Under the pieces are notes generated by a model that made no database searches, had not been told where the DNA came from, and was given only the letters and a program-made list of their open reading frames with translations. Positions 37,950-39,644 of a stretch of DNA of 64,000 nucleotides are shown in pieces (the stretch's first letter is position 1; each line of letters starts with the position of its first letter). The DNA lies in assembly GCF_006715145.1 (NCBI RefSeq), contig NZ_VFMR01000001.1:1612001-1676000 (forward strand). Direction: 5' to 3'. The translations under genes and the position numbers were made by a program. This DNA comes from Microbacterium sp. SLBN-146. Lineage in GTDB: Bacteria > Actinomycetota > Actinomycetes > Actinomycetales > Microbacteriaceae.

Positions 37950-38375
37950 TCACTGTACGCCGGGCTCGCCGGCATCCGCCCGGATCACGGCCGCAACGGC
38001 GCTCACCTCGATGAGGGCGCCCGGCACGGTGAGTCCCGCAACGCGTGCAGCCGTCACGAGCGGCGGTGCGCCGTCACGGGCGAGCGTGGGGGCGATGGCT
38101 CCGTAGGCCGCGCCGAGGTCGGCATCCGCATCGATCAGCACGGTCCACGAGATGACGTCGTCGAGCGTCGCGCCGGCCGCCTTGAGTGCGGTGATCGCGT
38201 TCTCGACGGCTCTCACGGCCTGGGACGCGACATCGGCGGCGACGACGTGGCCGGTCGCGTCGACGCCGTTCTGGCCGCCGATGTAGATCGTCGTCGCACC
38301 GGGCGGGACGATCGCGACGTGACTGTATGCGGGGCTCGCGACGAGCCCCTCGGGCTTGAGCAAGGTGATGGTCAT
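37950..38375 (-). CDS. RidA-family protein (enamine/imine deaminase-like)
   Basis: The 141-residue protein has the RidA fold features YIGGQNGVDATGHVVAAD, AVENAITALKAAGATLDDVI and the C-terminal VPGALIEVSAVAAV. RidA proteins hydrolyse reactive 2-aminoacrylate-type imines; the Rid2-7 subfamilies lack the key Arg in IEVxxxA, and here the residue before IEV is Leu, so activity is uncertain. The ATG at 38375 has GGAAGG about 8 bp upstream. First gene of a two-gene unit with the glycosylase. Confidence 0.75.
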   Translation of the reverse strand: MTITLLKPEGLVASPAYSHVAIVPPGATTIYIGGQNGVDATGHVVAADVASQAVRAVENAITALKAAGATLDDVISWTVLIDADADLGAAYGAIAPTLARDGAPPLVTAARVAGLTVPGALIEVSAVAAVIRADAGEPGVQ

Positions 38376-38408
38376 GGCGGCATCCTTCCCCGCGCCTCCG
38401 ACATCCCC

Positions 38409-38555: not shown

Positions 38556-39302
38556 TCAGAAGCGGTCGGGCGAAGGAGTGCCGTGGCCGTAGCGGATGGA
38601 GACGTCGGCGTGGCGGTCGAAGCGGTAGCCGATGCCGCGGACGGTGCGCACGATGTCTTCGTAGCGGCCGAGCTTCGCGCGGAGGCGGCGCACGTGCACG
38701 TCGATCGTGCGCTCGCCGGGAGCCTCGTCGTCGGTCGATCCCTGCCAGAGCGATGAGACGAGCTCGGCACGCTCGATCGTGCGTCCTTCGCGCAGGACGA
38801 GGTACTGCAGCAGCTCGAACTCCTTGAACGTGAACGCCGCCGATTCGCCGTCGATGAGGACGCGCTTGCGTGAGATGTCGACGACGACGCCGCCCGGGGC
38901 ACGGTCTTCCTCCGCGGACTCCTCCTGCTTCGTGCGGGCGACGGCCGACGGCTCGTGCAGCGCGAGGCGCACGACGTCGACGTCGCGGCCACCCGCCGCG
39001 ACGGGGGCGAGCGCGACGGTCGCGTACGTCTCGGCGGTGGGTGCGAGCTCGCTGAGCGTGCGGCGGAGGGCCTCGACGATCGTGCCGAGCGAGACCCCGG
39101 ATGCCGCGACCTTCGCCTCATCGAAGCCGACGTACAGAGCGAATCCGCGGGGGGTCGTGCCGGCGGGGAGATGACGCGCGGGGGCCTCGGGTGCTGCCGC
39201 GGGCGCCGGAGCGGCGGTCTCGACGGGGGAGGTCACAGCGCGGAGGTGGCGGGCCGGGCGGGCGTCGGCCGTGGGACGTTCGAGGAGAGCGGTGTTCGAC
39301 AT
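38556..39302 (-). CDS. Orphan winged-helix (OmpR C-terminal type) transcriptional regulator
   Basis: The 248-residue protein has no receiver domain. Residues 1-50 are Ala/Pro rich; 52-115 form a small alpha/beta region (RGFALYVGFDEAKVAASG); residues about 140-240 are a winged helix with FTFKEFELLQYLVLREG, IDVHVRRLRAKLGRYEDI and VRTVRGIGYRF. It cannot be a phosphorylation-dependent regulator in the usual way. The ATG at 39302 follows AAGGA. A leaderless cysteine-rich short ORF and a hairpin lie 200 bp upstream on the same strand, which suggests control of its expression by attenuation. Confidence 0.8.
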   Translation of the reverse strand: MSNTALLERPTADARPARHLRAVTSPVETAAPAPAAAPEAPARHLPAGTTPRGFALYVGFDEAKVAASGVSLGTIVEALRRTLSELAPTAETYATVALAPVAAGGRDVDVVRLALHEPSAVARTKQEESAEEDRAPGGVVVDISRKRVLIDGESAAFTFKEFELLQYLVLREGRTIERAELVSSLWQGSTDDEAPGERTIDVHVRRLRAKLGRYEDIVRTVRGIGYRFDRHADVSIRYGHGTPSPDRF

Positions 39303-39365
39303 GATGATGGTCCTTGCGGAAGTGAACCCGGGCGATGCGCCGAGAGCGGGTTCGGTGGGTGCTGC

Positions 39366-39398
39366 GATGCTGCCCCTGCGGGGCGGGTGAGAAGCATC
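39366..39398 (-). promoter_or_regulatory. Leader hairpin before the winged-helix regulator gene
   Basis: Outer arms GATGCT (39366-39371) and AGCATC (39393-39398) enclose the inner stem GCCCC (39372-39376) and GGGGC (39380-39384). It sits 64 bp before the regulator ATG and 108 bp after the short-ORF stop, as expected for an attenuation or sequestration structure. Confidence 0.45.
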
Positions 39399-39505
39399 AG
39401 GACTCGCGTGATCGACGCGGTGTCCGGTGCTTCGGGGGCCCGATCATCGGCTCGACGGAGAGGTGCGAGCGGCGAGGATCCGAAGGCCCGGCGGGTATCA
39501 CCGAG

Positions 39506-39607
39506 TCAGCGGCACATTCGACAACACATGGCAACGTGACCGGCCATCATCATGCCGGTCGTCCCGTTCGCCTCCAGGGCGGACAGAGAGCGTGCGTTGT
39601 CAGTCAT
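39506..39607 (-). CDS. Leaderless cysteine-rich short ORF (putative leader peptide)
   Basis: A 33-residue ORF starts MTDNARSLSALEANGTTG and ends VAMCCRMCR before TGA. The promoter places transcription start at the A of the ATG, so the mRNA has no leader. Short leaderless ORFs that end in Cys clusters act as cysteine-sensing attenuators in mycobacteria; this one fits the type but is not identical to any I know. It contains a run of three ATG codons inside the hairpin GACCGGC-N9-GCCGGTC. It reads toward the winged-helix regulator gene. Confidence 0.6.
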   Translation of the reverse strand: MTDNARSLSALEANGTTGMMMAGHVAMCCRMCR

Positions 39608-39614
39608 GCGCCCG

Positions 39615-39644
39615 ATTATGTCGGAGTGCGTCGGAGTGCGTCAA
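39615..39644 (-). promoter_or_regulatory. Promoter of the leaderless short ORF
   Basis: On the minus strand TTGACG (39644-39639) and CATAAT (39620-39615) are 18 bp apart, and the ATG begins 7 nt after the -10 box. The spacer is made of a 10-bp direct repeat. Confidence 0.65.

Follow-up and report, generated by a model that had tools for sequence, protein, structure and literature searches.

Canestrari et al. are said to have described, in 2020, a mycobacterial polycysteine sORF whose leader RNA was proposed to hide the downstream start site. In three reports, leaderless polycysteine ORFs are presented as cysteine-responsive attenuators in mycobacteria (PMC9031893, PMC9094748, PMC13236596), and Cys-rich uORFs were also observed in PMC4633059. 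Cysteine leader peptides were predicted for cys/cbs operons in Mycobacterium, P. acnes and B. longum (Seliverstov et al. 2005, PMC1262725).

Here we analyzed a 64,000-nt stretch of the Microbacterium sp. SLBN-146 genome (the window), in which a short upstream ORF (uORF) with Cys codons near its end precedes the gene of a winged-helix regulator. The mycobacterial polycysteine sORFs resemble this locus in the leaderless start (predicted here), the short ORF, the Cys codons near the stop, the gene directly downstream and the proposed hiding of a start site. They differ in targeting a sulfur-metabolism operon and in carrying a plain Cys run, whereas the uORF here precedes a regulator, has a mixed Cys-Cys-Arg-Met-Cys end with an invariant CGA-ATG, contains a Met-Met-Met complement of the start site and belongs to a host of the Microbacteriaceae. 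The leaders predicted by Seliverstov et al. are likewise short ORFs with Cys codons near the stop and no conserved terminator hairpin, but they precede cysteine operons, whereas this uORF precedes a transcription factor. As far as the sequence tells, the uORF would work like the polycysteine attenuators, with whose class it shares Cys codons that are clustered near the stop and conserved in relatives. A literature search of open papers returned no description of such a leader in Microbacteriaceae, and the leader is apparently undescribed.

Layout of the locus and its predicted promoter

The promoter, the 33-codon ORF, the hairpin and the downstream receiver-less regulator named in the original prediction, which gave no strand, were all found where it had placed them, and all lay on the minus strand of the single contig that makes up the window genome (Table 1). 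The two promoter hexamers, separated by an 18-nt spacer, matched 10/12 consensus bases and formed the sole promoter match in the region, with 0.1 expected from shuffles. CATAAT was followed by 7 nt and then by the A of the uORF ATG, and in 67/70 Microbacteriaceae leaders TTGAC preceded this ATG by 35-37 nt. Transcription had been proposed to be set at this A; the promoter and its spacing fit the proposal, and it is from the spacing that we infer the start point itself and hence a leaderless message. The uORF and the regulator gene were 203 nt apart, with a divergent LacI-type gene on the other side. The hairpin stem was kept in the genus through two-sided changes (GAGCCC/GGGCTC, GAATCC/GGATTC), the stems being judged by eye.

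Table 1. Features of the uORF-regulator locus, in window coordinates
Feature	Position	Strand	Basis or remark
-35 element TTGACG	39639..39644	-	promoter scan and spacing conservation in the family
-10 element CATAAT	39615..39620	-	predicts a leaderless start at the uORF ATG
Predicted leaderless uORF, 33 codons, MTDNARSLSALEANGTTGMMMAGHVAMCCRMCR	39506..39607	-	ends MCCRMCR
Met-Met-Met codons ATGATGATG	39545..39553	-	complementary to regulator spacer and start codon
Cys-Cys-Arg-Met-Cys codons	39512..39526	-	invariant CGA-ATG at 39520..39515
C-rich, G-poor leader from uORF stop to regulator	39330..39505	-	
Hairpin GAACCCG..CGGGTTC	39324..39353	-	just 5' of the regulator Shine-Dalgarno
Regulator Shine-Dalgarno, CATCATC spacer and start codon	39300..39315	-	
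OmpR/PhoB-type winged-helix regulator without receiver	38556..39302	-	248 aa

Conservation of the uORF ahead of the regulator

The regulator was present in 114/119 genus genomes and 194/200 family genomes. We tabulated 76 uORFs ahead of it, 70 from Microbacteriaceae and 6 from a second family of the order. A further 60 leaders were searched only for a promoter suitably spaced from a start codon, which avoided choosing them by motif. This criterion alone recovered a uORF with the CRM end in 45/60 leaders, and a direct search for the end motif in the remaining 15 found the same uORF in 14, giving 59/60; the lone exception was L141, whose promoter match has a different end. The best 80 matches to the uORF in a named genome collection were nearly all Microbacterium or Microbacteriaceae records, and the regulator lay downstream in 73/73 of those that were long enough, the other 7 contigs ending nearby. 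The distance from the ATG to CGAATG ranged from 63 to 102 nt and was a multiple of 3 in 114/116 leaders, and this keeping of frame despite varying length argues that the uORF is translated. The conservation of the putative uORF ahead of the same regulator in Microbacteriaceae is more than chance.

The uORFs of the second family had an entirely different N-terminal half, their ends read CCRMHA, CCRMQA or CCCRMSS, and the conserved end with CGA-ATG occurred in about two of every three leaders examined. We regard these uORFs as looser, and at most tentatively leaderless, counterparts. The regulator relatives of L085 and L087 (family f7) are preceded, ~200-240 nt upstream of their start, by another short ORF that ends QRMPMLCVRDLTC with CGAATG and is possibly an analogous leader.

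No other Cys-Arg-Met end was found in the window genome, where the single further match to the pattern lacked a stop. The promoter criterion detected no leaderless Cys-rich uORF at the sulfate-assimilation loci of six relatives. Rfam returned no match to the leader, and NCBIfam and Pfam no credible match to the uORF. A PF01507 protein (PAPS reductase/ATP sulfurylase) was absent from the window genome and from 61/99 genus genomes and present in 38/99. Because of these 61 genomes, sulfate assimilation by the PF01507 route seems to be lacking in many Microbacterium, and the leader, which is kept while only 38 have the protein, does not appear tied to sulfate assimilation.

Conserved cysteine codons and the CGA-ATG pair

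Among the 70 family uORFs, Cys occupied the two codons before and the one after Arg-Met in 59, 66 and 66 cases, respectively, with both TGT and TGC occurring where Cys was retained. The Arg codon was always CGA and the Met codon always ATG. When all 120 distinct uORFs were considered, 116 had Arg-Met near the end and 116/116 used CGA, which is a rare codon in the window genes (4/82 Arg codons). CGA-ATG stood two codons before the stop in 66/70 leaders, and the Cys codons 2-6 codons before it. Third codon positions of the uORF were not clearly more variable than the other positions.

The Cys codons were thus not lost in relatives: Cys directly preceded the invariant Arg codon in 111/116 distinct uORFs, and single Cys losses were tolerated in L012, L059, L155 and L163. 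Since these codons are kept, the suggestion of an attenuator-like leader is well supported, while the redox-dependent control proposed along with it found no support. The invariant CGA-ATG hexamer had not been part of the original prediction, nor had the finding that the Met-Met-Met codons are complementary to the regulator start region. The invariance of CGA is not accounted for by cysteine sensing; the codon may be translated slowly, arrest ribosomes or serve as an RNA site.

Complementarity between the uORF and the regulator start

In the window, the Met codons read ATGATGATG, the complement of which is found at the regulator's spacer and start codon, CCATCATCATG. The octamer CATCATCA occurs twice in the 64 kb, both strands considered and at these two sites only, although two matches were not unusual in shuffles. 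The minimum-energy fold of the window leader paired the Met codons with the regulator start (fold z -2.5). Met-Met-Met was located 7-8 codons before the uORF end in Microbacteriaceae and was missing in a few leaders (L121, L134). In a sliding comparison against shuffled start regions, the Met segment showed excess complementarity to the start region, with z about -5.3 in the genus and -4.6 in the rest of the family, and so did a second segment around codons 8-12.

CATCATC was present near the regulator start in 39/70 leaders versus 1/42 ORF starts of the window, the one presumably being the regulator itself. It lay on either side of the Shine-Dalgarno, varying by lineage, and co-occurred with GATGATG in the uORF (36/57 versus 3/19, P = 4e-4, not corrected for phylogeny). 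A minority of genus members kept Met-Met-Met but lacked CATCATC. Ensemble pairing between the uORF and the start exceeded that of shuffles in 20/31 genus leaders and 28/45 others. When duplexes of the CGAATG segment were sought along the entire downstream leader, the results were mostly no better than shuffles, and RNAalifold revealed no two-sided covariation in the genus leader alignment.

The downstream regulator

The regulator (39302..38556) matched only Trans_reg_C in Pfam (PF00486, 72 bits), and NCBIfam matches covered its C-terminal part only, in agreement with the prediction of a winged-helix protein without a receiver. In the AlphaFold2 model, only the winged helix was reliable, and the low-confidence N-terminal region leaves room for a very diverged receiver. 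Both Pfam and the fold match identified an OmpR/PhoB DNA-binding domain, for which the closest solved structure was that of GlnR (8hig, Z 13.6, rmsd 1.8 over 90 residues, ~47% identical). GlnR is an orphan OmpR-family actinobacterial regulator; the likeness lies in the DNA-binding domain, whereas the regulator here has no recognized receiver-like domain, and the window genome encodes a separate GlnR-like paralogue (L002) that, judged from sequence, seems closer to GlnR. The description 'global regulator' is unproven, though the gene is nearly universal in the family.

The regulator was free of Cys in 112/112 distinct cores and free of Met in 111/112. At variable positions, Met and Cys together accounted for 1/384 minority residue kinds, compared to 22/614 in the neighboring AlkA control. 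Such a composition would suit production of the protein under a shortage of sulfur amino acids. We had considered it as strong support for the leader's role, but it is only suggestive, because regulator relatives in two families, where no clear uORF was found, were equally poor in Cys and Met, and the GlnR-like paralogue has no Met.

Proposed mechanism and alternative explanations

We give an even chance to the specific proposal that the ORF at 39607..39506 is a regulatory uORF that acts in cis, its translation beginning with the very first nucleotide of the mRNA, and attenuates the downstream winged-helix regulator. Most likely, it would attenuate translation through its cysteine codons, in the manner of the mycobacterial polycysteine ORFs, but with a conserved regulator as its target. 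It probably tunes regulator production to how well ribosomes read it, and it plausibly senses cysteine. In the absence of ribosomes, the uORF RNA would pair with the regulator start site and hide it. When charged Cys-tRNA is short, ribosomes would slow and queue at the Cys/CGA end and cover the Met-Met-Met segment, the regulator start would be exposed, and the regulator level would rise. When ribosomes were placed on the leader in a folding model, a single one at the Cys codons left the start site closed (0.28 to 0.28), and a queue of two opened it (window, 0.28 to 0.46; higher than in the free state in 25/31 genus leaders). The direction of the response, the ligand and the regulon are inferences. 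We hold only tentatively the wider proposal that the family-wide leader couples the supply of Cys, and possibly Met, to translation of a core regulator free of Cys and Met, that ribosome pausing feeds the regulon and that the CGA-AUG pair is a new pausing element.

Rho-dependent transcription attenuation is an alternative: ribosomes would leave at the uORF stop, Rho would load on the C-rich leader and end transcription before the regulator, and a ribosome held near the stop would shield the RNA. Such shielding, together with Rho attenuation, is known for tna. C exceeded G in 70/70 leaders, with genus averages of C 0.44 and G 0.26, all values being for these leaders alone. No intrinsic terminator, the hairpin with a U-run that a classical attenuator would carry before the regulator, was found (0), which is in line with Rho, as is the short distance from the Cys codons to the stop. 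Rho had already been suggested for mycobacterial cys leaders (PMC1262725). We consider this reading unlikely, as it leaves the complementarity to the start codon unexplained. The invariant CGA-ATG, including its rare wobble base and its usual place two codons before the stop, would suit an arrest that is not specific for cysteine, in which the C-R-M end with its slow CGA would stall ribosomes through the nascent chain or the codon pair, alone or by another signal, and the stall would control the regulator. The Cys codons are also strongly kept, but with a free wobble base, as a Cys-tRNA sensor would have them, and we judge such an arrest unlikely.

The same hexamer, being invariant at the nucleotide level, could mainly be a DNA or RNA binding site for a protein, an RNase or an RNA partner, the reading frame being incidental. 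The spacer ATTCG, complementary to CGAAT, lay just 5' of the regulator start in 8/39 non-genus leaders, but a conserved partner was missing in the genus, and the ATG frame was kept across leaders of unequal length, which makes a mere binding site very unlikely. Least probable, in our judgment, is that the uORF codes for a small Cys-containing protein with a function of its own in trans, such as a metal- or redox-binding peptide. Conservation of the peptide end across a family would agree with it, but CGA is invariant at the level of the codon, the N-terminal half is replaced in the second family, single Cys losses are tolerated and the uORF always adjoins the regulator.

If attenuation by the cysteine codons is correct, an orphan regulator of nearly all Microbacteriaceae would be controlled by translation of a cysteine-coded leader. 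This would provide the first handle on the signal of the regulator and would mean that cysteine leaders can control a regulator as well as sulfur enzymes. The CGA-ATG pair, being invariant, poses a clean puzzle on codon-level or RNA-level control.

Other features of the locus

The uORF promoter contains 10-bp direct repeats at 39611-39643 (GACGCACTCC GACGCACTCC GACATAATCG), which were partly retained in the genus and might resemble a possible OmpR-type autoregulatory site. As a regulon motif, the promoter-spacer repeats were rejected, matching only their own promoter and one site with 3 mismatches. A RidA-type gene (37953-38381) lies downstream of the regulator and adjoins it only in the window genome among the loci compared; the usual neighbor in the genus is an AlkA-like gene. 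Conserved neighbors were discarded as a clue to function, this AlkA-like gene being the only one and confined to the genus and near relatives. In one clade (L048, L052, L063, L065, L066, L098, L099, L106), an element GAAGGATCACACCCTCATCATTAGAGGCCCTTC was located ~40-75 nt 5' of the regulator start. It contains an internal CCTC..GAGG hairpin, whose loop, in some clade members, complements the Met codons of the uORF.
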